A stretch of 25,731 nucleotides of DNA from positions 1 through 25,731 of IMG/VR virus record IMGVR_UViG_3300037247_000049, one strand, 5' to 3'. Below the pieces are notes generated by a model. The model saw nothing but the letters and a program-made list of their open reading frames with translations. It ran no database searches and was not told the origin of the DNA. The position numbers and the translations under genes are program-made. How positions within the stretch are numbered: the stretch's first letter is position 1; the number at the start of each line of letters is the position of its first letter. This DNA is from a virus. Shown here in pieces: positions 1 through 23,606 of the stretch.

Positions 1-3000
1 AGCTCCTGTAGCATCTCTAGGCCGTCCCGGTAGCCCAAGGACTGTGCAGCGACATCGACGTCTACGCCGCCTTTGCGGCGGTACAGGCCGTGTGCTCCGG
101 TGTGTGGCAGGGTTTTCAGCAGATCGGTGTCACCCAGGAGGACGTCGAGCACCGATTGACGGTCCAGTTTGATCGGACTCCTGCCGGTTGTATCGCCATT
201 CGGCATGCGGTTGCGTTGCAGTATCGACAGTGCGATGTAGACACGCTCAGCCTCAGCCTCAGCACGGACCAAGGCCTCCTCCTTTTTGCTCTCGTCTTTC
301 CACCACTGCAGCTGATCCCGACGCATCGCAGCCATCAGCTTCGAGGACTGTTTGGCGACCTCATCGTTGTGCGCGCGAATGATCGACTGCTTGTAAACCG
401 CGAACTCCTCCTCGGATATGCCCATTTGCTCGGCTGACGTATAGAGCGGCGCGTAATCCATGTTGGCCTCGGCCAGCGCGATCTCCTCGTCAGTCGCCAG
501 CATGCGGTCCATGACCTGACGGATATCGTTGGGTAGTTCGATGTCACGGACGCCTGCAATCTTGCGGTACACATCGAGCATCCATGTGCGGAACGAGTTG
601 AACGCATCCTGCAGCCCAATGCTCGGGGCCTTGCCCTCCATCGCATATTTCTCGAATGACTGGGCCCACTTCTCGTGGTGCTTGGTTTCGATGTCCTCGA
701 GGCTATCGACACCGAGGTATTTCAACACGGTTGCGGTGTCCTTGAGGATCTGTTCACTGGCATCCGGCCGGCTGGCCAGACGTTTCAGGAGCTCGAGGTA
801 TAGATGCCCCGCCTCGTGAATGAACGTCGACAGGTCTGCCGCTTCGAACAGCTTGATGATGACCCTGCCCTCGGCGTCGAACGTGAGCACGCCCTTGCGG
901 CCCTGAAACAAATCAGTGTCAGTGCCGGCGTCAGGATTGACAGCGCCGCGCGGTGCTACAACGCCGCCGTCTCTATCGCCTTGACGAACTCTGGCATCGT
1001 CGAGCTCTGTTCCAGTATCCTGAGCGCCTCGTCCAGCTTCGGGATCAGTTCCGGCTCGCTTTTGATCTCCTCCGCGTTGCCCCTCAGCGTCTCGAGTACG
1101 GCTGACATCGTCTCGAGACTCGGTGCCAAGTTCTGTGAGAGAGTGACCAATAGTTTCGAGAGCCCCTCCTTCGAGGGCTTCGCTGATGTAGCCATAAATT
1201 TCTCCTCCTTCATGCAGTGTGCCCTGCAGGTCGCGCAGGACGCCATCAATAAAATCAGTGTTCTCAAACGCCGTGCCGAATGCGTCCTGTAGCGCAAAGA
1301 TATAACTGATGCCGTGATTGAACTCCGCGAAATGCGCGATCTCGTGGATCATCGTCGTCATCAGGGACGCCGCAATGATCTTGTCACGACCGGGGCCCGG
1401 CGGCATGTTCCGCTGGATGTGTACGGCTTTGACCTCCTGCCCAGGATTGACGAACATCATCTGCGCCGGGACTTTCGTGTGTACGCCGTAGTAACGCTTG
1501 CCCAAAACGCTGACGCCTACGCCTACTTTGTCGAGGCCACCGTAATTGTCGATGCTACCGTTGACCGCTATCAGGTTGCGCAGTCGCAGGAACGCATTTC
1601 CAACACCGTGGAAATACTTGTTGACCGCTTGCTCACCGAACTTTTCGTAGAGCACCTCGGTCAGGTCCCTGCCGGCAAGAGTCTGCCAGACAGTACCGTC
1701 GAGCTCGCTTTCGGTTATGAACGACTGATTGCTGTGAATCAGCGGCACATCGTTGGTCACAAGGTCCTGATCCACCTTGGCTGCCGAGATATCAAAGCGC
1801 ACATTGGCGAACTCATCGGGAGTCATCGCCGGCTGCTCTATGTCGTTGATGTAGAGCACACCCTCACGAACCTGTACCGTGTCGCCGGCATTCCCCTCGA
1901 GCCCTGCGCGCCGATCCGCCTCGTCGATCTTTGGTGTAATGTCGATTGTCTCTGAGAGCTCGAACTTGCCATTGCTTTCAGTGACCGTGCGCAAGACGCC
2001 ATAGCCCTTAGACGACTGCATTGCTTTGTCAGCGTTGTGACGAATCACCATCATCAGCAGGATCGGGTCGAGATCAGACCTCGCATGCTCCCTGAGCCCC
2101 TGCCGATTAAACTCGAACGGGTACTGCCCACTCTCCGGCAGCACTGACGGATGCAGGTCAATGATGAAATTGCGGTCGATCAGGCTCGCCATGGGATCCA
2201 TTGGGTTTTCAGTCAGGCGTATCTCGAACTGCTTGAGGCCCTCAACCGAAATGACTGTGTTGGATTTGTAGCGGAAACGAGTCTCCTTGGCGACATAGAT
2301 ATCGGCCGAGCCCCATTCGAACTGCACCCGCCCCAGGCTGAAAAACTTATCCTGCTCGAACCCCTGACCAGAGTTGTCGGAAAACGCCCGATGGTCGCGC
2401 GTCACGGTGATTTTCGGATGGAGAATCTGATCCTGTGTGACGTCGACAATGTCCTTGTACTCGATGTCTGAGACTGGCTCGACCTTGCCGGTTTTTACAT
2501 CGACGTACTCGTCAGCGATCGTGATTGTAATTTTAGTGCCGCTTGGCTGATCGGTCTGCTCGCGTTTCACTTGGATCTTGTTGGTGTCAGGGTCGCGCAC
2601 GTTGAGCATGATCTGCTCACCCGTGACCTCCAAGGTTGTTTTGATACCGTCGCGGACGGTCTCGAGTTTCAGGCTCTTGTTGCCGAATAGGAACAGCATC
2701 TTAGCCAGCCCGAAGCCGCCTGAGTTGACCTTACCCTCCTTGCGTGTGCCGGCCTGCTTGAGGAACGCATTGACTACGATCTCGGACGTCATGCCGATGC
2801 CGTCATCAGTGATCGTCACCGTGCGCTTGTCAGTCGACACCGTGACGTCGATGTTGCCGTCCTCCTGACCTCGCTCGATCGCCGTGCGCGCGGCGTCGAA
2901 AGCGTTTTGGAATAGCTCCTTGATGCTGACCGCACCCATCTTGCCCATGTCGCCGTACATCGACGGACCGAACATCTCGAACATACGGGCCTGATCGACG

Positions 3001-3668
3001 CCTACCGAGGCCTCGATCGTCTCGAGCGTTTCCTTGTTGTCCTGGAAGAACTGGCGATTGCCGGCATCAGAGACCATCTCGTTGATCTGCAGATTGAGCT
3101 CACGCCAGCGTGGCACCATGGCATTGAGAGCCTTGCGGTTTTCGATCTTTCTGCCCTTGTGGTCCCACCAGCTTTGGAGCACTTCCTTTGGGCTCTTGCC
3201 CTGAAAACCATTCCAGCCCTCAGCGAGACGCTGGCGCGTATTCTCATCGAACATGACCTGACCGATCCGCATTAGGATCTCGTCTTGCTGCATGTTCTCG
3301 AGTGGATCGTAGAGCTCCTTGCCCTGTGCCAGTAGCAGATCGAATAGCTCGGACTCCCAACTCATAATCTTGTAGAGATTATTTAGGTCGCCCATCTCAG
3401 TTTCGATCGCAGTGCGATCGCTGATCAGCTTCCTCAGTCGAGCGTCCACGAAATCACGTATGTCAGCGACAGCATCCTTGGGCACGCTGATTGCGGCACC
3501 GGCCTCTCGGGCTCGGTCAGCAATGCTGATGATGTCGATGCTGCTCTCGATCAGTAGCCTGCGCACGGCCTGCTCGTCGTTCAAACCCTCAGCGAGATAC
3601 GTTGTCAGACGCGCCTCGTCTGCCTGCGAGACAACCCCTAGTTTCTTGATGCAGTCCTTTAGCGCCAC
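1..3668 (-). CDS. Giant polyvalent phage protein: GHKL (Hsp90-like) ATPase plus two zincin motifs, C-terminus outside window
   Basis: The frame is open from a GTG at 3668 to the window edge (1222 codons, no stop); the 3' end is missing. The GTG overlaps the upstream TAG (TAGTG) and has AAGGA nine bases before it. Residues 1-240 are helical and unrecognised. Residues about 245-420 carry the GHKL ATPase motifs: N box ELFQNAFDA (E251, N255), DDGIGM (288-293) and the glycine-rich lid GGFGLAK (317-323). A metalloprotease motif HEIAHFAEFNH follows at 775-785 (HExxH plus a third His), then a polar Gly/Arg/Asp-rich linker (about 845-910), then a second motif HEAGH at 951-955 with a possible third ligand E1006 in SFEKY. 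The region after HEAGH resembles the metallopeptidase part of the large polyvalent proteins that phages and conjugative elements deliver into cells. Inferred role: an injected or virion-associated ATP-dependent protein-remodelling or protein-cutting factor. The motifs are seen; the function is inferred. Confidence 0.85.
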   Translation of the reverse strand, partial: MALKDCIKKLGVVSQADEARLTTYLAEGLNDEQAVRRLLIESSIDIISIADRAREAGAAISVPKDAVADIRDFVDARLRKLISDRTAIETEMGDLNNLYKIMSWESELFDLLLAQGKELYDPLENMQQDEILMRIGQVMFDENTRQRLAEGWNGFQGKSPKEVLQSWWDHKGRKIENRKALNAMVPRWRELNLQINEMVSDAGNRQFFQDNKETLETIEASVGVDQARMFEMFGPSMYGDMGKMGAVSIKELFQNAFDAARTAIERGQEDGNIDVTVSTDKRTVTITDDGIGMTSEIVVNAFLKQAGTRKEGKVNSGGFGLAKMLFLFGNKSLKLETVRDGIKTTLEVTGEQIMLNVRDPDTNKIQVKREQTDQPSGTKITITIADEYVDVKTGKVEPVSDIEYKDIVDVTQDQILHPKITVTRDHRAFSDNSGQGFEQDKFFSLGRVQFEWGSADIYVAKETRFRYKSNTVISVEGLKQFEIRLTENPMDPMASLIDRNFIIDLHPSVLPESGQYPFEFNRQGLREHARSDLDPILLMMVIRHNADKAMQSSKGYGVLRTVTESNGKFELSETIDITPKIDEADRRAGLEGNAGDTVQVREGVLYINDIEQPAMTPDEFANVRFDISAAKVDQDLVTNDVPLIHSNQSFITESELDGTVWQTLAGRDLTEVLYEKFGEQAVNKYFHGVGNAFLRLRNLIAVNGSIDNYGGLDKVGVGVSVLGKRYYGVHTKVPAQMMFVNPGQEVKAVHIQRNMPPGPGRDKIIAASLMTTMIHEIAHFAEFNHGISYIFALQDAFGTAFENTDFIDGVLRDLQGTLHEGGEIYGYISEALEGGALETIGHSLTELGTESRDDVSRTRDAEGQRGGDQKRAGTDPEAGRGAQDTGTELDDARVRQGDRDGGVVAPRGAVNPDAGTDTDLFQGRKGVLTFDAEGRVIIKLFEAADLSTFIHEAGHLYLELLKRLASRPDASEQILKDTATVLKYLGVDSLEDIETKHHEKWAQSFEKYAMEGKAPSIGLQDAFNSFRTWMLDVYRKIAGVRDIELPNDIRQVMDRMLATDEEIALAEANMDYAPLYTSAEQMGISEEEFAVYKQSIIRAHNDEVAKQSSKLMAAMRRDQLQWWKDESKKEEALVRAEAEAERVYIALSILQRNRMPNGDTTGRSPIKLDRQSVLDVLLGDTDLLKTLPHTGAHGLYRRKGGVDVDVAAQSLGYRDGLEMLQE
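956..1195 (-). CDS. Candidate overprinted gene nested in the linker of the giant protein (79 aa)
   Basis: A complete 79-residue frame, starting MATSAKPSKE and ending FVKAIETAAL, lies in the +1 frame inside the giant protein gene. Its ATG has a near-perfect ribosome site, GGAGGAG, six bases upstream. The product looks like a real soluble helical protein, rich in Leu, Glu and Lys, with no signal peptide or membrane segment. The host frame over the same bases gives a low-complexity Gly/Arg/Asp/Thr-rich linker, and its third codon positions are unusually A/T-rich there (my hand count is about 35 G/C in 90 codons), unlike the rest of that gene. This suggests that selection acts on the nested frame. 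An alternative is a pair of compensating frameshifts that would place this helix in the giant protein, but the strong ribosome site argues for separate translation. I recognise no family. Confidence 0.5.
   Translation of the reverse strand: MATSAKPSKEGLSKLLVTLSQNLAPSLETMSAVLETLRGNAEEIKSEPELIPKLDEALRILEQSSTMPEFVKAIETAAL
1202..1208 (-). promoter_or_regulatory. Strong internal ribosome binding site for the nested frame
   Basis: GGAGGAG on the minus strand lies in the coding sequence of the giant protein, with the spacer AAATTT before the ATG at 1195. It is one of the best Shine-Dalgarno matches in the window and is positioned to serve only the nested +1 frame. Confidence 0.5.
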
Positions 3669-3892
3669 TACTCTCGGTCCTTCATTGTCAAAAATGCCCT
3701 GATGACCAACATCAGGAGCTCGTCCTCGGCTTCGATCCAGCGTGCCATCTCATCATAGCGTCTGGTTCCCGGCGGGAATGTAGGATCCGGCGTGAACGGC
3801 GGAACGATCGGCGGGATGATAATGCCACGACCGTAATGACTCGACAGGTAATGACTCGGACCGTAGTGCGAGCTCAGGTAATGCGAGCTCAC
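3668..3892 (-). CDS. Small structural protein with four SHY pentapeptide repeats
   Basis: This 74-residue protein starts at a GTG that overlaps the stop of the preceding tail gene (GTGA), and its own TAG overlaps the GTG of the giant protein, so it is probably translationally coupled on both sides. Residues 3-22 are four pentapeptides, SHYLS-SHYGP-SHYLS-SHYGR. A proline-rich stretch follows (about 24-43), then a helix ending in MKDRE. Short proteins with repeated aromatic units of this general kind are common beside phage tail genes, but I cannot give it a tested function. A His/Tyr array could bind metal or form a short fibrous element, which is speculation. No membrane segment or signal peptide is evident. 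Confidence 0.75.
   Translation of the reverse strand: MSSHYLSSHYGPSHYLSSHYGRGIIIPPIVPPFTPDPTFPPGTRRYDEMARWIEAEDELLMLVIRAFLTMKDRE
3827..3886 (-). repeat. Four tandem 15-bp units (two 30-bp copies) coding SHYxx repeats
   Basis: The units read Ser-His-Tyr-Leu-Ser, Ser-His-Tyr-Gly-Pro, Ser-His-Tyr-Leu-Ser and Ser-His-Tyr-Gly-Arg. Alternation of the Leu-Ser and Gly-x forms shows duplication of a 30-bp double unit. The DNA copies share the CATTACCTG and TACGG cores but differ at synonymous serine codons (TCG or AGT), so the duplication is not recent. Confidence 0.75.
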
Positions 3893-5160
3893 GATGGGTC
3901 AACCGCGGATATGCTGCGACCGCCGTTCGCTGCGTCGTCGCCAGTAATGCGATTGATGAGTCCGTCAGCTGACTTAATGACATAGCTGCCGTCGATCAGC
4001 TGCACGATGATGCCAGCCGCAGCCGCGCGCATCAGCTTTGTCTGGTCTCCGAAGGTCTCGCCGTTCTCCATGACCCTTGCGAATATCAGCTCGCTGAATT
4101 TGGCGTTGGTATTCACCACTGATCCGGTCGAGTTGTCCGTGAGTTGAAAGCCACCAGTGAGCACGATATTGCCGCCCGTACAGGAGGCATTGATCGTCAC
4201 AGCGCCTTGCGCCATGTGGATGTGAACCACATCGCCGGCCTCGATGTTGTCGAGAATGACACCGCCGCTGACGTCAGCCAGACCAACCACACTGGGCGCA
4301 TCTGAGACGCCGAGATCCAGCGTCCACGGCAACCCGGGTATCAGCACGGCCACTGAGGTCATAATACTGAATGAGCCAGCGCGTACCAGATAGACGCCAG
4401 CCATGGCCACACGCTGCGCGAGCAGTTCACCGCTAACGCTCTGCACACCAGCGTCCTGCACAAGCAACTGGCCGAGATGGATGCCGGTTATCGTGACGCC
4501 GCTGACTGAGGTTTTGTCGACGTCCTGACCGTTGAGGTCGACAACTGGGAACCCCAGACCGCGGATCGTGAAATTCTTGAGGTTGCGATCGAACGTGGCG
4601 TCGGTCAGCGTCACCATGGTTGTCAGGTTTGCTGGCCCCTCGGCGTAATCCACCGCGTCAGACCACACGTTGAACGGTGCCTGCTGGTATCCGAAATTAC
4701 CGTTGGTCGGGAATGTCTCGTCGACCCAGATCTCGCGGAGCGTCTGTCCGTGGATATCGTCGACCTTCTGGCCGATGTCGTCGGTGAGTCCAGAGATGCC
4801 AGTGACCAATGGCTGCAGGCCAAGATGCAGGACCGTGCGCCCGGGCGTTTCGTTAATGATTGGCAGCGTTAGATCGCTCGGGATCAGGTTGCCATCCCAA
4901 AAGACGTTCTGGCTTTCGTCGGTCGAGATGATCCGCCAGCCGATGTCATTGAGTAGAAAGTAATACTGGCCAGCCAAGGTGACGGTCGTGATGACCTCAC
5001 CGCCTGACGTGGCGAACGGGAACGGGTACTTGCGATTGTTGGCGTTGAGATGCCATTGCTTCGCATCGTCGTAGACCTGCTCGGCCGTCTGATTGAGCAC
5101 ACTGGCAGTCGGCGCGTCCAGCGTGATGATTAGGTTGTCACCGTCGAATTGGGCAGCCAT
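3889..5160 (-). CDS. Virion appendage / tail fibre-like protein (423 aa)
   Basis: The ATG at 5160 overlaps the preceding TGA (TGATG). The N-terminal 100 residues match a theme I know from phage tail proteins: a helix of the type AEQVYDDAKQWHLNANNRKY, then a beta-rich stretch with YYFLLNDIGWRI and a WDGNL turn. Residues about 180-345 alternate short hydrophobic strands, which fits a beta-helix or stacked beta domain (for example SGVTITGIHLGQLLVQDAGV). The C-terminus has ADGLINRITGDDAANGG. Its place among fibre genes, and its lack of enzyme motifs, signal peptide and membrane segments, support a structural or receptor-binding role on the particle. Exact position in the virion is not known. Confidence 0.7.
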   Translation of the reverse strand: MAAQFDGDNLIITLDAPTASVLNQTAEQVYDDAKQWHLNANNRKYPFPFATSGGEVITTVTLAGQYYFLLNDIGWRIISTDESQNVFWDGNLIPSDLTLPIINETPGRTVLHLGLQPLVTGISGLTDDIGQKVDDIHGQTLREIWVDETFPTNGNFGYQQAPFNVWSDAVDYAEGPANLTTMVTLTDATFDRNLKNFTIRGLGFPVVDLNGQDVDKTSVSGVTITGIHLGQLLVQDAGVQSVSGELLAQRVAMAGVYLVRAGSFSIMTSVAVLIPGLPWTLDLGVSDAPSVVGLADVSGGVILDNIEAGDVVHIHMAQGAVTINASCTGGNIVLTGGFQLTDNSTGSVVNTNAKFSELIFARVMENGETFGDQTKLMRAAAAGIIVQLIDGSYVIKSADGLINRITGDDAANGGRSISAVDPS

Positions 5161-6794
5161 CAGTCCACCCTGTCGAAATTGCGGTCAACTTGCTGATTGA
5201 CCTGCACGTTCTGCGAGGCAGCAAAGCTGACGTTGATGACGAAGATCTCGAGAAACCCAGGGTTGACAATCTTGTAGTCGAGCGCCTGCGACGCACCTGC
5301 ACTGGCCACGAAGCTGGCCCCTGAATTCTCGACGCCGTCGATCTCGATATTGGTGCCAGTCTCAAACAGCCTCACCTCGCTGTTGGCCTGTAGCGGCGTG
5401 AACGTCAGTGAGATCGCCGCCACATCGTCAGAGGTTGCGCTGGCGCCGTTGCGGAATGACGGCTGAGTGCCACCGCCTGAGCGGTTGAACGTGCGAGCCG
5501 CCGCCGCATTGTTGAAAATCATGGCATCGTTCGAGCCTGAGCTCGGCGTGTTGTTGTCGCCCGGCGTGCCACCGTAGTTGGCGTCGAAGATGTTGCCGAT
5601 ATTGGCCTGTGAGCTCGGGCCACCGCTGAGTATCTCGATACCATGGCCATCGCTGAATATGAATGACGAGTTAGCGATGTCTCCGATGTCATCGGTGTCG
5701 CAAAAGGCCACGCCATCAGCAGTGTTGGCGCCAACCACGGTGATGCGAACCGCTTTGGCGTTCGAGAAATGTGCCTTGTCGCAGTCGAGGAAAACCACCG
5801 TGGCCAGATCGCAGGGAGCCTGAGCAAGGTCGAATATCTCTCCGCCGCTGAATTGACAGCCATAGAAGCCGGCCGAGTCGATGTCGGCATCGGCGTCGAA
5901 GTCCATGAACCAGCGCGGGCCGCCAGTCGTGATGACGAAGCCCTGGGCGCCGGTCGCATCATTGCCGCTGCCGCTCTTGACGCCGAAAGTGACGTCCATC
6001 TGGCCGGCGCCTGCGACACCGTCAAAGCCATAGAAGCCATCGACGACATCAGCGATCTCGAAGCCGAGGATGATATTGGTGTCCTCAAACTCGTCGACGG
6101 TGCCATCGTCAGCGCCAAATCGGATGTGAGCGTTACAGGTCAGGGTGCCGTTATCGAGCTCGTCCAGCATCCCCCAAGGAGAGTCGGTGCCCGTGTTGAG
6201 AACAACATCGAGGACGTCAGCCATGTTCCACGCAACCGATGAATTCTGCCCCTCGATACGGAGGCCGGGAGTGCCGACCGCTACGTGCCAAGAGGCATCC
6301 ACAAAGAAATTCGGATCAGAGCCCGGCGCCGAGGCCGTTGTCGTGACAGCGATGCCGACAAACTGCACGGCGCTGACCAGTGGTGGGGTGCCGCCGGTGT
6401 TGTCCGAGGCCGCCTTTGCCACGCTGGCATCGACCACAAACATCTTGAAGCCGCCGCCGTAGGTATCAGATCCGGCGACGTTGATCTCAAAAAAGTCTGT
6501 CTGAGTGGTGCCGCTGAATCGCATCGTGAGGCCCTGATTGGCCTTGAGGTCAAGCAGCGCAGCGGCCGACATATTGACCCAGAAGTAGAAAACGGTATCA
6601 GTGAAATCCTGCGCGGATCCAAAGTCCCACTGAATAGCGTTCGTCGATTTGCTCGAGCGACCCTCAATGGAGCCGGTGCCTACAATGAAATTGGTCGTGC
6701 TGGCGGTCGCGCCCATGGTGCCGCCGCTGTCATCGACCCACGATCCCTGCGCATTGGCGTTGCTGATTAACGTGCGGCCATCAATTACCGACAC
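5160..6794 (-). CDS. Virion structural protein, beta-rich, probable receptor-binding appendage (544 aa)
   Basis: The start is a GTG at 6794 with AGGA eight bases upstream. The protein is rich in Gly, Ala, Ser, Asp and short beta strands. Residues about 20-200 look like a lectin-type or laminin-type beta-sandwich (IQWDFGSAQDFTDTVFYFWV). The middle has the ladder-like strands of a beta-helix (SSFIFSDGHGIEILSGG). The last 90 residues form a domain I recognise from other phages, with an opening like ISLTFTPLQANSEVRLFETG, then IEIDGVENSG and a final FDRVD. No catalytic motif was found. Its stop overlaps the next start, and both neighbours in the cluster are fibre-like except for the SPOUT-like gene just upstream. 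Confidence 0.7.
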   Translation of the reverse strand: MSVIDGRTLISNANAQGSWVDDSGGTMGATASTTNFIVGTGSIEGRSSKSTNAIQWDFGSAQDFTDTVFYFWVNMSAAALLDLKANQGLTMRFSGTTQTDFFEINVAGSDTYGGGFKMFVVDASVAKAASDNTGGTPPLVSAVQFVGIAVTTTASAPGSDPNFFVDASWHVAVGTPGLRIEGQNSSVAWNMADVLDVVLNTGTDSPWGMLDELDNGTLTCNAHIRFGADDGTVDEFEDTNIILGFEIADVVDGFYGFDGVAGAGQMDVTFGVKSGSGNDATGAQGFVITTGGPRWFMDFDADADIDSAGFYGCQFSGGEIFDLAQAPCDLATVVFLDCDKAHFSNAKAVRITVVGANTADGVAFCDTDDIGDIANSSFIFSDGHGIEILSGGPSSQANIGNIFDANYGGTPGDNNTPSSGSNDAMIFNNAAAARTFNRSGGGTQPSFRNGASATSDDVAAISLTFTPLQANSEVRLFETGTNIEIDGVENSGASFVASAGASQALDYKIVNPGFLEIFVINVSFAASQNVQVNQQVDRNFDRVD

Positions 6795-6809
6795 GACGCC
6801 ATTCCTGTG

Positions 6810-7277
6810 TTAGCTGTTCTCTGTGAGACCACGGAGCCACCTATCCTGCATCACCACGGTAGCTGCCATAATTGCCCACATTCCCCATCTTGCATTTGCC
6901 GCCATGGGTAACTGGACCCAGTCGGCGCCCGGAACCACAAGGCCCTCGAGTCCACCGCCATCAGGTCCAAGGCAATAGATAACATCGTCATCAGTGGGGT
7001 GCGTGTATTCTGACAGCATCGTCGGCTCGACCGGGCCTTGCCGTTCAATCATCACGTATTTGTCGTCAGGGTGAGCCGCCCTGAGCTCGTCCCATGTTGC
7101 ATAGGTGATGGCGGGATGTTCCTGATCCTGGTTCGGATAGAAGCATTCCCGCCCGGTGCGGTTGATGACAAGCATGCGGTCCACGCCGAAGCAGCGGCAG
7201 ACAGATAGCCACTCCTCCGTCCTGATTTCCTTACCGCAAGGGTGTCGACCCTCTACAAAAAACGCGAGTGAGATCAT
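6810..7277 (-). CDS. SPOUT/SpoU-like RNA methyltransferase-like protein (155 aa)
   Basis: The start overlaps the fibre stop (TAATG). The sequence follows the order of the three SpoU/TrmH motifs of knotted SAM-dependent RNA 2'-O-methyltransferases. A motif-1-like part (residues 8-39) has WLSVCRCFGVDRMLVIN, where family members have N..R.A..FGVD.V. A motif-2-like part (102-125) has CLGPDGGGLEGL followed by VQLPM, compared with the usual G-E-x-G-L and IPM. A motif-3-like helix (127-147) has ANARWGMWAIMAATVVMQDR, compared with the usual SLNVSVAAGI. The Asn-x-Gly and motif-2 Glu positions are altered and the Ser-Leu-Asn triplet is missing, so activity is uncertain. The length matches a bare catalytic domain of the small single-domain members. 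Known family role: methylation of tRNA or rRNA. Its setting between fibre genes is unusual. Homology is by eye only. Confidence 0.5.
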   Translation of the reverse strand: MISLAFFVEGRHPCGKEIRTEEWLSVCRCFGVDRMLVINRTGRECFYPNQDQEHPAITYATWDELRAAHPDDKYVMIERQGPVEPTMLSEYTHPTDDDVIYCLGPDGGGLEGLVVPGADWVQLPMAANARWGMWAIMAATVVMQDRWLRGLTENS

Positions 7278-10237
7278 TACAGGACCACATTGCGTTCTTG
7301 CTGGCTCTGCAGTGGAACGGTCAGCGGCGTCTGAGACACGATCTGCAGTACCGCCGATTCAGTGTACTGAGCGGTTACTCGTCCGAGCGCCTTGGCCTTT
7401 ACGTTCACCGTTTCCGAGATGGTCCTGCCACCCTGGACGTTGTCATCAAAGCCGAAGTTGTTGGAGTAATCGGCATCCGCCTCGACACTGAATAGCTCGG
7501 TGAGAATGACCTGAGAACCTGCCCCTTGCGTTGTCAGCACCGGCTCAAACTGGTTCTGCTCAATGGTGAGTACGCCAGCCGCGGCCGTGAGAAGTTTGAC
7601 GATAAGGCCTGCGTTAGCGCCTGCGCCTGCACCCTCGATACGGATTCGATCGCCTATGGAGAAGATGCCGAAGCCGGAGCCAGAGTCGCTGATTGTGTCA
7701 GGAGCCGTGAAGCTGATGGTCGTGTCGTCGATCAGGTTCGTGGTGTTGATGATAAGCGCGCTCGGAGTGTCGAACGGATGCTCGTCGATCGGAATGATGG
7801 CCGAGGCTACCGTGGTAATCATGGCTGCATTGTCGTAGCGCACCACGATCCACGAGGACGTCGAGGATTCAGTCACTACCTGATAGATGCCATTGGCTGC
7901 GAGCTCGGTTGTCAGGAAGCCTGAGAGCCGGACGTAAGCACCATCGCCCTCGTCGAGCGCCGGCAAGTTAGCACCGGCTGAGGTAAACGTGCCGCCAGCG
8001 TTGACCACCAGATCTGCCGGCAGGGTACGGATGGTGCGATCGAAAAAGAGATCGCCCTCGGCCACGAGGTCATTTATCAGGATGTCATTGAAATCGAGCG
8101 TGACCGCAATCGTTTCCTTGTTCGATCGCAGCACACCCAGGTTGTCCCAGAACTGCACATCGTTGGCATCGCCGGCAGCGATGTTATCGAAGTACATGCC
8201 AGAGCCGCCGCCGTCAGGATTCGTCGGGAACGACAGACCGCCATCAACAGATCCGAACTCGAGCGTGGCACCGTTGAATCTGAGCAGGCCGTCGATCGTG
8301 CGACCGATTGCCGTATCGGCATCGGCGTCGATATCGGTCAGTTTGCGCAGCTGGCGCTGTGTGAATTCGTAGATCTCGTTTTTCGAACCAGCGTTGCCCT
8401 CACCGATAATTCCGAAGTTTCTCACACCGCCAACCAGTGTCGCTGCTCCTCTAGCTTGCGGCGTGGAATGGAACGTCAGCGTCATGCCGGTGTACGGGCC
8501 TGAGCCGTCGATCGTCACATCGGTATTGGTGATATTGGCATCCTCGACCGTACCGAGGCCGAAAATGAATGCGCGGTTTGATAGCTGTGTGGCCAGCGCG
8601 TTACCGAGGCCCTGCTGTGCGAACGTCTTACCGAGCGCGTCATCATCGCGAGGCCTGAGTTTCAGGCTGAATGCGAATCGGTTGTCCAGCGTGAGGTTCA
8701 TTGTGGTGTCGGCCGCGTTATTGGTCAGGTCAGCCGCGCCAATTACCAGATCGCCGTCCACACCGCCAACGATAGCGGTGATGATGTGAGTGCCATCATT
8801 GCCTACATCCTCGGACGAGTCGGCCGTCACGCGACCGCCAACCTTGTAGCCGTCAGCAACGAAGTCGCCACCATCGGTACGACTAATCGTGTCATTCGTT
8901 GCGATAACGAAGCCAGTAGTCGGGATGAGTCGCGTGACCGTGGCGTCGAGCACCTTAATGGCCTCGTCCACAATGCCGGCGAACTCCATGTCAACCGTGT
9001 CATCGACCGTTGTGTCAGTACCAAACTGGAAGTAACCGAGGTCGCGATCAGCGTCCTCCACCGTGGCATTCGATCGGATCGCGGCATACTCAGCCGTGAC
9101 CAGACCAGTCGCGTCAATCTCCTGCCAGCCCATATTGCGAGTCAGCTTGCGAGTGCGTATACCGAACTCCGCATTGTCGACGAAAATCCATCCTGAGTTG
9201 TTGCCAGAGGCGTCCTGACCCACCAGATACTTACCGGCGTCAGAGTCAATGTTGAACATCGGGAACGCGGCATTGGCGATCAGGAAATTGTCGTCTTTCC
9301 AGTCGATCATTGACCGTGAATAGAGCGGTTGCCCCAAGGTGCCAGTGTCGTCCACCAGTGGATCGGTCTGGATATCCAGAGCCTCGGCCGCAGCGTCTAC
9401 AGGCGTGAGGCCATCAGAGACCATCTCGACCTGCCAGTTGCCGCTGATCGTAGTGATTCCGCGGACCACGTAGTAGCCGTTGTTGGCGGCGGTCGCGTGA
9501 TTTATGACGAGGAACTTCTGGCCGATTTTGACGGCCGGGAGGGCAACGGTAGCAGAGTCAATATCCACCAGCGGTGCTGCAGCATTCAGCCATTGAGCGT
9601 CAGCCACGGCAAGGGTCACGATTCCAGGTTGCTCGAGGATGTAAAAGCCAAGCGCGGCCGTGTCATAGAAAATCGACTTAATCTCGGAATAGACGTCGAC
9701 CGCCTCGGATGCCTGATTCGCCGGGTCTGCCCCGGTGAGTTTCTGGCAATTAAAGCCATCAGCGACGGCGCTCAGTACCTCGTAGCCACCATCGTTGTCG
9801 GTGTCGGTCGAGTTTCTCAGGTGGAAGCGTGAGCCCACCTCGAGAGATGTCGGCAGGTTGCCGCCAACAGAGGTGATGTCAACAGTCTCGCCGGAAGCGT
9901 TGGCGAATACGGCATCAGAGACAGCACTGTCGAGGCTTGCCAGGATGTCGCAATCCTCAGCGCCATCGTCAACCGGATCCGCGCCCGAGACCTTGCGCAC
10001 ATCCACTGTGCCAGCGGCCGGAGCGGCGTCATCAACCTGATACAGACCGTTGTTGACGGTGAATGGGCTGTTGCGGATCTCGAAAAATTCCTTGTCGACC
10101 ATGACCGGAATGTTCGAGCCTGCACTGGTAATCGTGACGGCATCGCCAGCCTGAGCAGTGAATACGAGGTCCGATACGTTCTGAATGTTGCCCTGACTGA
10201 GCGCGTGTGGATCGGTTACTACTGTTGGAAATGGCAT
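7277..10237 (-). CDS. Large repeat-containing tail fibre / appendage protein (986 aa)
   Basis: The ATG at 10237 has GAGG eight bases upstream. The protein is acidic, beta-rich and built partly of degenerate modules of about 75 residues: copies near 28-100, 111-184, 216-291, 440-516, 741-815 and 840-912. Each has a strand like DAVTITSAGSNIP, a hydrophobic strand with G..F.IRN or GDRIRIEGA, a turn such as NNGLYQV, DGGYEV, NNGYYVV or ANGIYQV, then a strand and a D/A-rich end. The region 310-440 has W and G turns (SGWIFVDNAEF), and 625-700 may be a trimer or chaperone-type segment. These features fit a long fibre or side appendage that binds the host surface. No hydrolase motif is evident. It is the largest member of the appendage cluster. 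Confidence 0.75.
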   Translation of the reverse strand: MPFPTVVTDPHALSQGNIQNVSDLVFTAQAGDAVTITSAGSNIPVMVDKEFFEIRNSPFTVNNGLYQVDDAAPAAGTVDVRKVSGADPVDDGAEDCDILASLDSAVSDAVFANASGETVDITSVGGNLPTSLEVGSRFHLRNSTDTDNDGGYEVLSAVADGFNCQKLTGADPANQASEAVDVYSEIKSIFYDTAALGFYILEQPGIVTLAVADAQWLNAAAPLVDIDSATVALPAVKIGQKFLVINHATAANNGYYVVRGITTISGNWQVEMVSDGLTPVDAAAEALDIQTDPLVDDTGTLGQPLYSRSMIDWKDDNFLIANAAFPMFNIDSDAGKYLVGQDASGNNSGWIFVDNAEFGIRTRKLTRNMGWQEIDATGLVTAEYAAIRSNATVEDADRDLGYFQFGTDTTVDDTVDMEFAGIVDEAIKVLDATVTRLIPTTGFVIATNDTISRTDGGDFVADGYKVGGRVTADSSEDVGNDGTHIITAIVGGVDGDLVIGAADLTNNAADTTMNLTLDNRFAFSLKLRPRDDDALGKTFAQQGLGNALATQLSNRAFIFGLGTVEDANITNTDVTIDGSGPYTGMTLTFHSTPQARGAATLVGGVRNFGIIGEGNAGSKNEIYEFTQRQLRKLTDIDADADTAIGRTIDGLLRFNGATLEFGSVDGGLSFPTNPDGGGSGMYFDNIAAGDANDVQFWDNLGVLRSNKETIAVTLDFNDILINDLVAEGDLFFDRTIRTLPADLVVNAGGTFTSAGANLPALDEGDGAYVRLSGFLTTELAANGIYQVVTESSTSSWIVVRYDNAAMITTVASAIIPIDEHPFDTPSALIINTTNLIDDTTISFTAPDTISDSGSGFGIFSIGDRIRIEGAGAGANAGLIVKLLTAAAGVLTIEQNQFEPVLTTQGAGSQVILTELFSVEADADYSNNFGFDDNVQGGRTISETVNVKAKALGRVTAQYTESAVLQIVSQTPLTVPLQSQQERNVVL

Positions 10238-10252
10238 ATCCTTTGCCTCTGT

Positions 10253-10657
10253 TTAATGTCGTGTTGGGATGATGGCCCGGGCTTCTATTTTTACAGCTGG
10301 CGACAGCCCGGGGCCGCTCCGCAATATATTGAAATCGTAGTCGATCGGCTCGTGGTTACGCTCGGCGCGTATCTCCTCGAGCAGTTCGCGAATAGGGTTG
10401 AGGTCAACAGGTACGGGAGCAGGCCCTTGGCCTTGCTTCCTGATGACGGCTTGCAGTGTGGCGAGGATCTCGAGATTGGTCTGGTTGCGTGCAATGTCCG
10501 CGCGAATGCGCTCAGATTCACTGCTAACCATGCTTTTCATAGCTTCGATAAGTTCACCGAAACGCTCGATTGAGAGCACCTCGGGATCGAATTCGAACTC
10601 AGCACCCGAAGATTTCGACTTATTGAGCTCGTCAAGAGTTATAGTCTTTTCAGGCAT
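10253..10657 (-). CDS. Hypothetical protein with a central coiled coil (134 aa)
   Basis: The start overlaps the last eight bases of the large ejection protein gene. Residues 1-30 are charged and polar. Residues about 28-110 are predicted helical, with heptad-like spacing (FGELIEAMKSMVSSESERIR, then NQTNLEILATLQAVIRKQG), broken by a proline-rich turn (GPAPVPVDLNP) and followed by a second helix (IRELLEEIRAERN). It has no signal peptide, membrane segment or known motif. A connector, chaperone or fibre-assembly role is plausible because it sits between the ejection proteins and the largest fibre. I do not recognise the family. Confidence 0.65.
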   Translation of the reverse strand: MPEKTITLDELNKSKSSGAEFEFDPEVLSIERFGELIEAMKSMVSSESERIRADIARNQTNLEILATLQAVIRKQGQGPAPVPVDLNPIRELLEEIRAERNHEPIDYDFNILRSGPGLSPAVKIEARAIIPTRH

Positions 10658-13364
10658 TTACGCAATCCAGAAGCCTTTTTAAGAGGTTTTTACGCTTAAC
10701 GGAGCGGCGAAATTCGGTCTCGACTTTGATCGTCCTCGTGGCACGTTTCCCGGTCTCCTGGATGAGAACCCTATCAGAAATTGTCAAATCGCCAAAGTCC
10801 TGCGTCTCGTCAACTATCGGCAGCATAGCCGCTGCGCGTCCGAGCGTGGCGTCTACATTCGACTTGCCGCGAAAAGGAGTTGAGTCGGCAAATAGCGTCT
10901 CGGTCACACCGATCTGCTGCAGCACCAACTCCGTCAGGCTACGCAAATCCTTGGAATCTATCTGCGCCAGCGTGACGCGCTCAGTTAGAGCATTGCGTAT
11001 CTCGGCATTGGTCATCGTATCAAGGTCGATGCTGGCCTCCTCGAGGATGTCTGAGAGCTCGTCCAGGGTGACACTGAGATCCCGCATACTGGTATCTCCG
11101 GAATCGCGAGTACCCTGCACAGGCCTGCCGGCGGTCTCCTCCCTGATGGCCTCGACGAGCAGGTTCTCGTCGGCGGCTACGATATAACCGGCCTCAGCTG
11201 CAATTTCAGCGATGTGTGATAGCTCCTTGCCCTCGGTTTTCCAGCGATTTAGCTTGGCCTTACTGACGCCGAGCTCTTGTGCGCTGATCTCAAAGTCCAT
11301 TGCCACGAGCTCAGAGTCGCCCACGTTTATACCGCCAGAGGCAACGATGAAGTCCATCAGAGATGGGCCAAACATATCGCGCTGGCTCGGGAAATCGTTG
11401 TTGCGCAGGCGATTGAGTAGCGGGTCAATTGTCAGGTTGATGTCCTCGCCGCGCGTATGAGCCGCCTCGGTTGTGCGCTTCACGCCACCAAAAACCTGCT
11501 CGAACAGTTCCTTTGGATCCAGACCCTCGTTCTTAGCCATGACGCCAATGCCGCGTAAAAGCTGACCAAGCTGGCCGGCAGAGACCTCGTCATAACCAGT
11601 GGTCATCAGCTGGCCCTGAATGTCCTGCACGATCTGCTCGATATCGGCGTCCTCCTCAGTGGTGCGGATTTGTGCCGCTCCGGACTCGAGTATTGACATA
11701 ACCTCGTCCCGGTTTTTTACATATTCCTGAGCCTCGTTGTAGGTGAATGCGTCCTCGTGCGGCCGTAGATTCGGCAACATCTGATTGAACACCTCCTGCT
11801 TGGCGGCGATCTTTTTGGCGAATTCGATTATCGGGATCTGCACATCACCATCACCCATGCGGGCGAGCTCGAGGTTCTCGACGCCGAGCTCCTGCGCAAG
11901 GACATCCGGATCAATGCCCTGTGCCAGTGAATACTCTACGAAGGCCTGCACCGGCATACCTATTTCCTTGAGCTCACCGCCCTCGGAGACCATCTCTACA
12001 AAGCGTTTCATATGGTCTGGTAGGGATTTAGGCAGATCAGCTTTCTGCACGCCCTCAGCCATATCGCGCAGCACCGTGGAGAAGTTCTCAGCGTTGCGGG
12101 CTCGCCGGCCATCCATGAATAGTCGCTGTCCAGGTCCGGCACCGGCGATCAGGAACGTAGCCTTGAGCGTTTCGACGGCGACATCGACGATACGAGAGCT
12201 AATCTCTGCCCCTGTAAGGTCCTCCGCCACGCCGGGATGCTGGCCTTTGAGTATCTCGCCCATCGTGATCAGGGAGGCCTCCTGCAGGATCTCAGTGACT
12301 ATTTCGCCGGTAACGCCAGCGCCGTAGTCAAATGCCGCGCGGCCAGCAACCTGCCGGAACGACTCTCTGCCGAGGAGTTGCTTCACGATCTCAGCACTTC
12401 CCTTGCCAGTCAGCTGCCGCACACCGGGCAGCTTGTCGAAAAATACCTGACCGAGCGTTGCCTCGAGTAAGCCGCTGACGCTACCTGAGATCTCGGCAGC
12501 CCATGCAGCATCCTGCTCATTGAATCCCATGTCGCGATATTCGAGATACGCCTCGCCACGGCCGAGCTCGGCGCCGATTTCGTAGCCGCCGGTCACGGAT
12601 CCGACCGCGAACCCAATACCGAAGCCACCAATCGCACCGCCGGCAGTGCCGATAGCTGTTCCGCCGCCAGGGAGAATGACTGTGCCACCAATTGACCCGT
12701 AGTAACCGCCCATTGCAGCGCCAGTGAAGCCGAATTGCAGGCCACGCTCGAGACGCTTCTGACTGGATACGATCATATTGGCAGATTGCTTTGTCAGCCA
12801 GACAATCGGACTAGACCATTCAGCACCGAAGTCGTGAGAGACCTGATACTTTCGAAGCTCTGCCAGTTTTTCCTCATCGCCGGGCTGCTCGCCGTCGCGC
12901 TGCTGGCGGGCACCAATCATCAGCATCTTGTTCTGTGCCCAAGATGAATTCCACGAATTGCTGATCGGATCTGTGGTTCGCATGATGTCGCGGCCGTGTG
13001 AAAAGAGCCGTTCACCTATCGTGGTTGTGTCGAGCTCTCGATAGGCGCGTTCAAATTGCGTCAGCCACTCCTCGTCGTGCTTGAGAACGGCGAGATCCAT
13101 GGGGCTGTTAGAGGCGAATTCACGCCATGCCGGCGCCTCATCCTTGTACTTGTTTGGGTCAAACTCGCGCTGCCGTACCATCTCGGAGATGTTGTCGAAA
13201 TCGGACTCGAGCAGCTGCTCTGGCAGGCCAGTGATGCCACGCAGCTTTAGGATCTCTTTTGAGCGATTGTAGTCGGCGTTTATCTGGTCTCCGACACGGA
13301 GACGTATTTCCTCACGCTGCTCGCGACGCGCTCGGTCGGTCACTGATTCCCATGCCTGCGGCAT
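10650..13364 (-). CDS. Large internal virion (ejection) protein, gp16-like position, glycine-zipper membrane segment (904 aa)
   Basis: I place the start at the ATG at 13364, which overlaps the preceding stop (TAATG); the 15 codons further upstream would lie inside that gene. Residues about 210-265 are a Gly/Ala-rich hydrophobic stretch with GxxxG spacing (GGYYGSIGG, GTAIGTAGGAIGGFGIGF) followed by a conserved-looking E..AYLEYRDMGF segment. This is a pattern I know from large podovirus internal proteins thought to form the DNA-ejection channel. Further on are a VQIPIIEFAKKIA element and a helix-turn-helix-like stretch (ELGVSKAKLNRWKTEGKEL). The C-terminus ends with VLIQETGKRATRTIKV and a basic helix closing in LLDCVNA, an ending I also know from phage polyvalent proteins. 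No lytic transglycosylase motif is visible. Inferred role: crosses the host envelope during genome delivery. Confidence 0.75.
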   Translation of the reverse strand: MPQAWESVTDRARREQREEIRLRVGDQINADYNRSKEILKLRGITGLPEQLLESDFDNISEMVRQREFDPNKYKDEAPAWREFASNSPMDLAVLKHDEEWLTQFERAYRELDTTTIGERLFSHGRDIMRTTDPISNSWNSSWAQNKMLMIGARQQRDGEQPGDEEKLAELRKYQVSHDFGAEWSSPIVWLTKQSANMIVSSQKRLERGLQFGFTGAAMGGYYGSIGGTVILPGGGTAIGTAGGAIGGFGIGFAVGSVTGGYEIGAELGRGEAYLEYRDMGFNEQDAAWAAEISGSVSGLLEATLGQVFFDKLPGVRQLTGKGSAEIVKQLLGRESFRQVAGRAAFDYGAGVTGEIVTEILQEASLITMGEILKGQHPGVAEDLTGAEISSRIVDVAVETLKATFLIAGAGPGQRLFMDGRRARNAENFSTVLRDMAEGVQKADLPKSLPDHMKRFVEMVSEGGELKEIGMPVQAFVEYSLAQGIDPDVLAQELGVENLELARMGDGDVQIPIIEFAKKIAAKQEVFNQMLPNLRPHEDAFTYNEAQEYVKNRDEVMSILESGAAQIRTTEEDADIEQIVQDIQGQLMTTGYDEVSAGQLGQLLRGIGVMAKNEGLDPKELFEQVFGGVKRTTEAAHTRGEDINLTIDPLLNRLRNNDFPSQRDMFGPSLMDFIVASGGINVGDSELVAMDFEISAQELGVSKAKLNRWKTEGKELSHIAEIAAEAGYIVAADENLLVEAIREETAGRPVQGTRDSGDTSMRDLSVTLDELSDILEEASIDLDTMTNAEIRNALTERVTLAQIDSKDLRSLTELVLQQIGVTETLFADSTPFRGKSNVDATLGRAAAMLPIVDETQDFGDLTISDRVLIQETGKRATRTIKVETEFRRSVKRKNLLKRLLDCVNA

Positions 13365-15349
13365 TAGACGCCATCCTCGCCTCTGATGCGCCGGCGCGCG
13401 TATTCCCAACCAGTCTCCTCGGGCAGAGCATTCAGGTAGAAATAGGCCTCCTCGAGCGTCTTGTCGCTGACCCCATCGGGATCAGACGAATAGGAGCGTA
13501 GCGCCTCCTCCCACGTTTTATTTCCTTCACTACCAGGACGCGGGACTGTGCTGATATCGTCCCGCCACTGGTCGATCGGAATGTAAGCCTCGAGTGCTTC
13601 TGGCTCGAACTCGATATTCCTCGCCGCCACAACCTTGCCGCTGGCATCCCTGAGTGCGTCAAAGCGCACGATCTCAGCCTCGATGGTCCGACGATCGCCA
13701 ATCTCACCCCAGAGGCCCTCTCGTATAAAGACTTCACGGCGCAGTATTTCGGAGGTGATGGTTTCAATATCAACCGCAAATATCTCGCCAGTGCCGCCCT
13801 CGGCAGCGCGTCGCACCGATTCCTCTGTGATGGCCTTATTGACAGCCGCGTCAATGCGCTGGTATCGCTTGGCCTGTACGCTGGTCGAGCTCGGCGGATA
13901 GGCCCGCGGGAATAATTTGTTCTCACCGACCAGCATATTCTGCAGAACCTCGTCCTGAGAATCTCCGCGCCAGATCTTGAGAGTGCCGGGCGCCTCCGCA
14001 GACTTTTTGAGTGCGTTGGCCTCGGCCATCCAGCTGTCGCGTGTGGCCCGTGTGATGCGTGACTTGTAGGTCGCTGAGTCCATGAATTGCAGCTGCTCGA
14101 TCTTCTGTTTGGCTGAGTACATGCGCCACTCGTGCTCGAAATCGGAGTCGTCAGACAGCGCAAACTCGTGGCCCTCAGAACGGCCCTTGGCATAGGCCTC
14201 GAGGCGCACCTTGCTGTCCGGCGACAGTTCCGTCCATATCGGCATAGTGCGCAAATCACCGAGCGTCGGCGTTTCGCCTGCAGCCACTTGCTCGTCGATC
14301 CAGTTGGTGACATCTCTGGCCTGCTCAGCGTCAGCCTGTGCGGCACGATTCGAGTCACGATTGTTACGCATGCCGAGCTCCGTTTGCAGTAGCTTCTTGA
14401 GCTCGCCGTACTCAGGATCCTTTGGATCCAGCATTGCGTAAGCGGCCTTATCGCGAGCGTTGAGATCATCGGACGTTGTACCCGGGAAGTCCGCGGTCAC
14501 GGCGTCGATAATCCCGTAGACCGCCTCATACTGAGTCGCGTTCTTGTGCTCCTCCTTGCCCTTTTCCAGCATGTCCTCGAGAACGCTGGCATGCAGGAAA
14601 TCAGCAATCGAGCCGGAGCCCTTTTCGTTAGCTATGTCATCGCGAGTGATGGCACCACGCGCCTCGCGGTGCGCCAGCGAGAGCTCGATCTCAGCGATCA
14701 TGTCTGCCTTGTCCATTTTCTCGAGCGAGTTGACCGCAGTCTTGACGACAAAGGCTTGGATTAGAGTTTCTCCCTCCTGCTTGGTAAACCACGCCGTCTC
14801 ACCCTCGGTTGCCGCATTCACGGTCTCGAGCGCCTGCAGCATCAATGCGTTTTGATTTTCAGGGCCCTCTAACTGGATCGCCTCGGCTGCGACATCGAGA
14901 GACAGTTCAATATCTGCACGGCCTTGGTCGATCTCCATGCCGCGGGCCAGGTTGCCGGCTGCGACGCGGCCCTTCTCACGGATCAGGTCGGACTCAGAGC
15001 CCAGTAGTGCGCTGTCCGTGCCCGACAGCTTGGCGCCGTAGCGCCCCATGATCTCGTCACGGCCAGTGTTGAAGCCGGTCGAATAGTCCTCGTCGAACGC
15101 ATCAAAATCGGTGCGATCCTTGAGCCCCTCGCGCTGCGCAAGGTCCAGCGCCATGATCTCGTTTTTGGCCAGCGCATAGTGCAGTCGGCTGTCTTTTTGC
15201 TTTTTCTCGCCGTAGAGCTTCGCGAACGTGCCGGCAGCCTGTGCCACCGACTCAGCAATCTCGACACCATCAGGGCGCACTTGGTCGATGCGACCTGATC
15301 GCAGCGATGGTCGCGCACCGAAGGCCATTACGTCAGGCAGCTTAGGCAT
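13364..15349 (-). CDS. Internal virion protein, gp15-like (661 aa)
   Basis: The ATG at 15349 overlaps the previous stop (TAATG). Apart from a short N-terminal strand region (MPKLPDVMAFGARPSLRSGR), the protein is almost wholly alpha-helical and highly charged, with many Ala/Glu/Lys/Asp heptads. Examples are KLYGEKKQKDSRLHYALAKN near residues 44-63 and DRTDFDAFDEDYSTGF shortly after. It has no signal peptide, membrane segment or enzyme motif. The size, composition and position just before the glycine-zipper protein match the middle internal core protein of T7-type phages, which is ejected with the DNA and helps form the trans-envelope tube. The assignment rests on context and composition more than on sequence identity. 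Confidence 0.75.
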   Translation of the reverse strand: MPKLPDVMAFGARPSLRSGRIDQVRPDGVEIAESVAQAAGTFAKLYGEKKQKDSRLHYALAKNEIMALDLAQREGLKDRTDFDAFDEDYSTGFNTGRDEIMGRYGAKLSGTDSALLGSESDLIREKGRVAAGNLARGMEIDQGRADIELSLDVAAEAIQLEGPENQNALMLQALETVNAATEGETAWFTKQEGETLIQAFVVKTAVNSLEKMDKADMIAEIELSLAHREARGAITRDDIANEKGSGSIADFLHASVLEDMLEKGKEEHKNATQYEAVYGIIDAVTADFPGTTSDDLNARDKAAYAMLDPKDPEYGELKKLLQTELGMRNNRDSNRAAQADAEQARDVTNWIDEQVAAGETPTLGDLRTMPIWTELSPDSKVRLEAYAKGRSEGHEFALSDDSDFEHEWRMYSAKQKIEQLQFMDSATYKSRITRATRDSWMAEANALKKSAEAPGTLKIWRGDSQDEVLQNMLVGENKLFPRAYPPSSTSVQAKRYQRIDAAVNKAITEESVRRAAEGGTGEIFAVDIETITSEILRREVFIREGLWGEIGDRRTIEAEIVRFDALRDASGKVVAARNIEFEPEALEAYIPIDQWRDDISTVPRPGSEGNKTWEEALRSYSSDPDGVSDKTLEEAYFYLNALPEETGWEYARRRIRGEDGV

Positions 15350-17264: not shown

Positions 17265-17752
17265 GTCATGCTACTCGAGCTCGCTGTGGCTTTCGACGCC
17301 GTTGGCGCTGACACCGTAGAGCTACCACCGAAGGATCCGCCAGCTGAGCTATAGGTTGAAAACGCGCTCGCAACCGTATTGATAACGCCCATGATCAGAG
17401 CATCGTCAGCCGCCTGTTCCTCAGCCTCAGCCTGATGAATCAGACCCTCGGCGTCATTCTGGCCCTGCCACAGCACCGACATAACGCGGTATTCGCCCTC
17501 GGCATTGAGATCTGCGAGCAGCTTGACCATGCCGGCATCGGTGCCTGCACCAGACGCGGCAGCGACGGCTACCGCTCGAGAGTGAATGAATGCTTGCTTG
17601 CGCCGTTCCTCGGACATCTCACGAGTAGTTGCGCCCATGCGACGATTCTTGGCTTGACGGTACGCTTCGGCTTGGGCCTCGTGGCCCTTCATTTGTTTAT
17701 AGGCCTTGATGGCCTGAGCGCCTCCGCTGACAATTGCCGCTACAACAGCCAT
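17261..17752 (-). CDS. Internal virion protein, gp14-like (163 aa)
   Basis: I favour the ATG at 17752, with GGAG ten bases upstream, over a GTG three codons earlier that lies too close to the ribosome site. It starts with a short hydrophobic helix (MAVVAAIVSGGAQAIKAY), then Ala/Gln/Glu/Arg-rich helices (AEAYRQAKNRRMGATTREMS), a small-residue segment (SRAVAVAAASGAGTDAGM) and a Ser/Ala/Thr-rich tail. This layout is typical of the smallest internal core protein of podoviruses, the T7 gp14 analogue, which enters the outer membrane during ejection. It overlaps the GNAT-like gene by 13 bases and the fibre gene by four. Confidence 0.75.
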   Translation of the reverse strand: MAVVAAIVSGGAQAIKAYKQMKGHEAQAEAYRQAKNRRMGATTREMSEERRKQAFIHSRAVAVAAASGAGTDAGMVKLLADLNAEGEYRVMSVLWQGQNDAEGLIHQAEAEEQAADDALIMGVINTVASAFSTYSSAGGSFGGSSTVSAPTASKATASSSSMT

Positions 17753-18168
17753 CCGTACCACGCTCCGTGTAGGTGTGTGAAACCAAGTCGATGCAAGAGC
17801 CTACATGACTCAGCATCGTCCGCGATCGACAGTACAGGCCCTCGATACTGCCCGACATATTTCATGGCATCCTTGATCGCTCGCAGTATCGTAATTGATT
17901 TAAGGTGCGGCTGCAGCTTCGGCTTAAATTCTGAGAAAAACACGCCCCACTCAGGATGTCTGGCGACGCCTATCACGCCAACAACCTCATCGTCCACGAG
18001 CGCGACGTTGGCGCGCATCGAGTAACGATATGGCTCACCGTAAAATTCAACAATGTCATCTGCCGTCGCCCTGCGCCAGCCTAACGCCGGCGCGATTTCT
18101 CGACCGACTGAAATACTGCTATCGCAGCCAGGACCGTGCATGGCTTCGGGCTCTCCGCTTGTAAGCAT
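17740..18168 (-). CDS. GNAT acetyltransferase-like phage protein, gp13-like position (142 aa)
   Basis: The region after residue 28 reads like the start of many small GNAT proteins (LGWRRATADDIVEFYG), with a central strand pair VALVDDEVVGVIGVAR and a helix in the acetyl-CoA region (LKSITILRAIKDAMKYV). It ends in the GNAT-type closing pattern AESCRLLHRLGFTHL. The classical Q/R-x-x-G-x-G/A loop is not clear, so catalysis is uncertain. T7-type phages place a related fold at the gp13 position beside the internal core proteins, and this gene sits there. The start is unclear. The ATG at 18168 has GGAGG 13 bases upstream; an ATG at 18141 and a GTG at 18189 are alternatives. The first choice overlaps the tail tubular B gene by 88 bases, an unusually long overlap. 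Confidence 0.7.
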   Translation of the reverse strand: MLTSGEPEAMHGPGCDSSISVGREIAPALGWRRATADDIVEFYGEPYRYSMRANVALVDDEVVGVIGVARHPEWGVFFSEFKPKLQPHLKSITILRAIKDAMKYVGQYRGPVLSIADDAESCRLLHRLGFTHLHGAWYGWLL

Positions 18169-23588: not shown

Positions 23589-23606
23589 TTGCCAATCCTC
23601 CAATAA

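Follow-up and report, generated by a model that had tools for sequence, protein, structure and literature searches.

Relation to described systems

GHKL ATPases joined to an S5-like domain power nucleases, topoisomerases and chaperones, and in MutL, gyrase and MORC the GHKL-S5 unit is thought to be a clamp, driven by adenosine triphosphate (ATP), with control over an effector that follows it in the chain. Here we describe a viral unit of this kind fused to a metalloprotease. It lies in P0001, a gene at one end of a 25,731-base virus fragment (IMG/VR record IMGVR_UViG_3300037247_000049; this whole stretch is referred to as the window), where residues ~226-850 (~630 amino acids) form a cassette of a GHKL domain, an S5-like transducer and a Wss1/SPRTN-like metalloprotease. 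Each of these parts, and the polyvalent type of protein that carries them, is already known; the tripartite combination is new, and we did not find it described in the literature searched.

For VcSduA (GHKL-Shedu), modelling likewise suggests that the GHKL-S5 unit is an ATP-driven clamp governing a downstream effector (PMC12137116), and the basic residue of the S5 domain was recorded by Iyer et al. 2008 (PMC2292703), a paper on MORC and paraMORC proteins that mentions neither a protease nor a peptidase. MutL, MORC/paraMORC, GyrB/ParE and VcSduA resemble the cassette in combining GHKL and S5 domains, the latter with a conserved basic residue, with a C-terminal effector; the cassette effector, however, is a metalloprotease, in place of the nuclease of MutL and VcSduA, the Toprim domain of gyrase or the C-terminal domain of Hsp90. 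Hsp90, HtpG and TRAP1 are the nearest sequence matches of the cassette GHKL domain and share with it the fold of the N and middle (M) domains (Z ~19), but the Hsp90 C-terminal dimerisation domain does not follow M in the cassette, where an invariant HExxHxxxxxH zincin stands instead. Wss1, SPRTN and YgjP-WLM proteins share this motif and probably also the fold predicted for the cassette protease, at ~10% identity. Wss1 and SPRTN are described as targeting DNA-bound proteins (PMC4559962, PMC5127644); unlike them, the cassette protease is fused to a GHKL ATPase, and we recognised in it none of the known elements that bind ubiquitin, SUMO or DNA. Phage RIIA, which is linked to counter-defence, has a GHKL domain and, by fold, a transducer as well, but differs from the cassette in that it is encoded by a gene of its own and ends in an unrelated domain; no zincin match was seen.

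The protein that carries the cassette has the same backbone as the Bbp10-type proteins (phrog_9880; e.g. BPP-1 Bbp10 and Cobetia phage Carin1 gp32, with LPD22 and a CLCA_X zincin). The upstream gene P0007 corresponds to the N-terminal part of this backbone and residues 920-1222 of P0001 to its zincin and the region after it (29-44% identity to Carin1 gp32), and the virion gene order of Bbp10-type phages is that of the window. In contrast, the Bbp10-type proteins of 11 named phages all lack the cassette (11/11), the equivalent region holding other domains, such as ART or PBECR, or nothing recognised. The main text of the work on polyvalent proteins (Iyer 2017, PMC5512222) contains no mention of GHKL or Hsp90.

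Architecture and conservation of the cassette

The original prediction, made from the DNA letters alone, had proposed one frame of at least 1,222 codons that joins an Hsp90-type GHKL ATPase to two zincin motifs. The frame is indeed single and stop-free, running on the minus strand from a GTG start at 3668, with an AAGGA-like ribosome site upstream, down to base 3 (1,222 codons); its protein is incomplete because the record is a fragment that ends within the frame. The motifs lie at the residues originally assigned to them, and the gene is organised as follows.

3-3668, minus strand: P0001, half-gene for the C-terminal part of a giant virion protein of Bbp10 type, at least 1,222 residues, 3' end missing
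2994-3668, minus strand: N-terminal domain of P0001, residues 1-225, common to relatives L014-L018, L097 and L146
2379-2993, minus strand: GHKL (Hsp90/gyrase-type) ATPase domain, residues 226-430, identified by Pfam and model fold
2904-2918, minus strand: N box, E251...N255, kept in 91/91 copies
2790-2807, minus strand: G1 box, DDGIGM, residues 288-293 (D288 91/91, G290 89/91, G292 91/91, M293 91/91)
2700-2720, minus strand: lid/G2, GGFGLAK, residues 317-323 (G317, G320 and K323 92/92; G318 87/92)
1707-2378, minus strand: S5-like transducer/middle domain, residues 431-654, with Arg522 in YPFxxNR
1128-1706, minus strand: probable Wss1/WLM-like metalloprotease domain, residues 655-847, from a profile, Pfam matches in relatives and a model
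1314-1346, minus strand: HEIAHFAEFNH, residues 775-785, predicted HExxHxxxxxH zinc site (H775, E776, H779 and H785 92/92)
912-1127, minus strand: linker of low complexity, rich in Gly and Asp, residues 848-919, which L018, the relative with the empty site, lacks
483-911, minus strand: backbone zincin of CLCA_X/Bbp10 type, residues 920-1062, with HEAGH (951-955) at 804-818

The cassette ATPase is a member of the GHKL superfamily, with the N box, DxGxG, GxxG and lid lysine of a Bergerat fold followed by S5. The window sequence matches PF13589 (E 1.8e-7; 31.7 bits against a gathering cut-off of 25) and PF02518 (E 3e-7); PF13589 is matched by 38/38 cassette relatives, for all of which (38/38) Hsp90 is the nearest family by sequence. 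Conservation extends to K250 and D258 (91/91) and K310 (92/92), and R522 of the transducer is invariant (92/92). In the G1 box, two copies (L293 and L294) have DDATGM where DxGxGM is usual. Residues 226-870 were modelled with AlphaFold2 from 38 relatives; the model has a mean predicted local distance difference test score (pLDDT) of 81.7 and a predicted template modelling score of 0.69. Its residues 1-399 align over ~285 residues with the ATPase and transducer domains of GyrB, Hsp90, TRAP1 and TopoVI-B (Z 18-19.6), and Foldseek matched the N+M fold to Hsp90 with E 5e-12, so that the Hsp90/GyrB-like part of the prediction is strongly supported. Profile alignment to HtpG with hhalign covered the N domain only and did not match the Hsp90 catalytic arginine, and R522 can thus be equated with that residue only provisionally. 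A search of a viral structure library returned one full-length match to the cassette (UniProt A0A516L4L2, 31% identity, E 1e-47), and PADLOC gave just weak GHKL-level matches.

The protease domain is probably a minigluzincin of the Wss1/WLM/SPRTN type. Wss1p ranked first with its sequence profile (profile A4, E 0.0025), and weak Pfam matches were obtained in relatives to YgjP (24/38) and WLM (14/38), with none in the window's own sequence. Modelled alone (pLDDT 87.7), the domain shows a helix, three strands and the HExxH helix; the best-matching structures are Wss1 from two yeasts (5xbn, Z 8.0 over 105 residues at 2.7 A; 5jig, Z 7.7), followed by SPRTN (Z 5.7) and then YbeY and the minigluzincins, giving moderate support to a Wss1-like fold. 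Assignment to the metzincins was rejected: the histidine spacing is the same, but there is no glycine at position 8, and Wss1 and SPRTN rank first.

Pfam detected neither of the two zincins in the single sequence of the window, and the support for both is their conservation in homologues, which is far above chance. The HEAGH domain is, judged by sequence, of the CLCA_X type, a zincin already described, for which residues 700-1000 of Bbp10 served in 2013 as a seed (PMC3650047); the three residues of HExxH (H, E, H) and a Glu downstream of them do not vary among 12 phages (alignment A1). The possibility that the two zincins are one duplicated domain was rejected, as motifs, neighbours and distribution all differ.

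Several claims of the original prediction can accordingly be refined. The GHKL assignment clears the Pfam cut-off, the predicted structure aligns with the N and middle domains of Hsp90 and GyrB, and the fusion of GHKL and zincin in one chain is kept across homologues, with catalytic residues, on whose conservation the prediction had been made to depend, retained in 91-92 of the 92 copies. The two zincin motifs both exist but differ in origin, HEAGH belonging to the backbone and HEIAHFAEFNH to the separate cassette; the latter, which had been grouped with the zincins of polyvalent proteins, is not of the generic polyvalent metalloprotease kind and is closest to Wss1/WLM/SPRTN. The ATPase-plus-protease architecture was correctly seen, whilst the S5-like transducer with its invariant arginine, which lies between the two, had been overlooked.

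Copies and distribution

Scans of IMG/VR returned 48 loci with a three-copy profile, at least 87 with a 38-sequence profile and 97 with a pattern of the protease motif only; 92 distinct cassette sequences are present in that database (81 clusters at 90% identity), and a sequencing or assembly artefact was rejected on this ground. The three parts are obligately linked: the order GHKL-S5-protease is found in every frame that is complete on its contig, the seven exceptions are all cut by contig ends, and on complete contigs a search that started from the protease only still returned nothing but fusions of GHKL, S5 and protease. When P0001 alone, or just its GHKL part, was used to scan viral contigs, there were almost no matches, because such single-sequence patterns are too specific.

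Two pattern scans of 84,980 bacterial and archaeal genomes, one per species, found no relative of the cassette, these scans using short conserved peptide patterns that may have missed distant cellular relatives. Searches with tblastn gave generic GHKL-level matches and no cassette among 72,556 plasmids, GHKL-level matches only (generic GHKL and RIIA) among 50,697 phage records, and no match to the protease region alone among cultured phages. The obligate linkage, the near-perfect conservation of the active sites, the spread over unrelated virion proteins and the apparent absence from cellular genomes point to a dedicated viral tool.

Backbones and insertion site

In BPP-1 (Bbp10), Carin1 (gp32) and nine further phages, the Bbp10-type protein is one giant chain of 1,974-4,012 residues, encoded among the virion genes. 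The window has it split between P0007 and P0001, two genes with five others between them:

10650-13409, minus strand: P0007, half-gene for the N-terminal part of this protein, matching phrog_9880 36-723 (E 5e-30)
3889-10657, minus strand: P0002-P0006, fibre-like or unknown, between the half-genes, with gene order kept in L097

The same split occurs in relatives L014-L016, L018, L097 and L146, and the window protein is thus a split variant of the Bbp10 family, not a single giant polypeptide. Residues 923-1221 of P0001 match phrog_9880 944-1257 (E 1e-78). Other members of the phrog_9880 backbone carry LPD22, PBECR and ART-PolyVal domains, which makes Bbp10-type proteins polyvalent proteins in the sense of PMC5512222; the window protein, too, is a long chain in a virion context that unites several enzymatic domains unrelated to one another.

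The cassette occurs in 2 of the first 80 backbone relatives. In L018 (9320-13828) the equivalents of P0001 residues 1-226 and 920-1221 adjoin, i.e. the site is empty, and in L014 and L016 it holds different cargo, which in L016 includes a RadC/JAB-like domain (7409-8500; E 8e-8 to 2qlc). Other copies of the cassette sit on C-terminal backbones that do not cluster with Bbp10, of DarB/PLxRFG type, LPD5/MetMV type and others; upstream of one such copy (L107) are genes with matches to a DNA ejection protein and to a structural protein of the virion. The cassette tree contains 14 changes of backbone label against a minimum of 5, from which the number of transfers can be read approximately, since backbones were clustered by single linkage and the FastTree tree has long branches. 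Giant virion proteins with several unrelated backbones thus carry the cassette as exchangeable cargo.

Some further features of these proteins were noted. L014 and L016 both contain a 'FVEE(I/V)QSD' stretch that was also spotted by eye in Microcystis phage Mel-JY33. In L121 (6038-15739) a giant protein combines the GHKL-protease cassette with a DNA-binding domain, FtsK gamma (E 6e-12), and the Bbp10-type protein of Xanthomonas phage SAC (L008, 6710-13735) has an extra HExxH, HEVLH, at residue 926, upstream of the backbone zincin. Limnohabitans phage DC33 (PQ492659.1, L010) is filed as Inoviridae despite its Bbp10-type giant protein, a questionable annotation, and the labels 'crystallin' or 'lysis' given to Bbp10-type proteins in PQ492659.1 (L010), NC_005357.1 (L004) and MK942064.1 (L006) are likewise questionable.

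Proposed function and alternatives

The reading that we favour, with a probability of roughly 0.55, is that the cassette is an ATP-gated clamp controlling a protease and is delivered as cargo of a polyvalent protein; the analogies with GHKL-S5 clamps and with Wss1/SPRTN, taken with the virion context, make an injected ATP-gated protease the most economical explanation. On gene context and polyvalent precedent, the giant protein would be packaged and then ejected with the DNA. The GHKL-S5 part may dimerise upon ATP binding and close as a clamp around protein or DNA, and closure would present the bound protein to the Wss1/SPRTN-type protease; more speculatively, the substrate could be a host protein encountered soon after infection begins, for which a protein sitting on the entering DNA is a plausible candidate. 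ATP hydrolysis, the dimer clamp and proteolysis are each suggested by analogy with related GHKL and Wss1 proteins. That the cassette has ATPase and protease activity is likely, and delivery of the giant protein into the cell is probable to a somewhat lesser degree. It is less likely than not that the cassette acts against defence proteins or proteins bound to DNA, and the specific proposal that phages inject a Spartan-like protease, whose GHKL-S5 clamp captures restriction, nucleoid or defence proteins on incoming DNA, is equally tentative.

Several points weigh against this interpretation. ATPase and protease activity, and injection, are inferred from sequence, models and gene context, and the whole cassette was found in no homologue of known function. 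The Foldseek E value for the protease fold is poor (best 1.6, to Wss1), so that membership of the Wss1 subfamily is probable, not proven, and the likeness to Wss1 depends on three things: the motif, a VIA Z of 8.0 and a profile E of ~0.003. The window's own P0001 also lacks its 3' end, the equivalent gene in close cassette-bearing relatives encoding ~2,450-2,600 residues.

The least unlikely alternative is self-processing in cis, in which the Hsp90-like part would keep or render the giant protein partly unfolded for passage through portal and tail and the protease would cut the polyprotein into effectors, before packaging or after ejection. Giant proteins must traverse a narrow tail, which counts in favour of this proposal, as does the presence of a second zincin (HEAGH) in the same chain. 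Auto-processing has moreover been proposed for the zincins of polyvalent proteins (Iyer 2017, PMC5512222). However, the backbone has this conserved zincin of its own, and L018 and BPP-1 do without the cassette, which therefore appears unnecessary for backbone processing; its occurrence on unrelated backbones argues in the same direction. It is less probable again that the cassette acts in the producing cell as an assembly factor, i.e. as a chaperone or maturation protease in morphogenesis and not as an injected effector: the late-gene position near head and tail genes would suit such a role, but the patchy presence within one backbone clade, where the site may instead be empty or hold RadC/JAB, fits accessory cargo better. 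Very improbable is a RIIA-like counter-defence protein fused to a virion protein, its protease being only a binding or zinc-structural domain, since, although RIIA proteins are the closest GHKL proteins among cultured phages and have a C-terminal domain that varies behind their GHKL domain (PMC7824862), no copy (0/92) has lost the catalytic Glu or any of the three His, which would be unexpected in a dead protease, and identity to RIIA is just ~27% and limited to the GHKL part (tblastn). Identification of the GHKL domain itself as RIIA was also rejected.

If correct, an injected ATP-gated protease would be the viral protease counterpart of MutL and GHKL-Shedu, and the coupling of a conserved GHKL-S5 unit to a metalloprotease would broaden this class of machine. 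ATP-driven proteolysis would join the known cargo of polyvalent proteins, opening a way to find what these giant proteins act on, and the cassette, at ~630 residues, is a compact unit amenable to expression and assay.

Neighbouring genes

As the original prediction had placed it, P0001 lies in a virion region, beside capsid, tail and internal virion protein genes:

17261-17761, minus strand: internal virion protein (phrog_418)
18081-20882, minus strand: tail protein (phrog_376)
22728-23603, minus strand: major head protein (phrog_3437)

A 661-residue protein (13364-15349, minus strand), for which no significant family match was obtained, occupies the slot of the transglycosylase/lysozyme ejection protein of relatives, and a homologue with 24% identity to it is present in L018.

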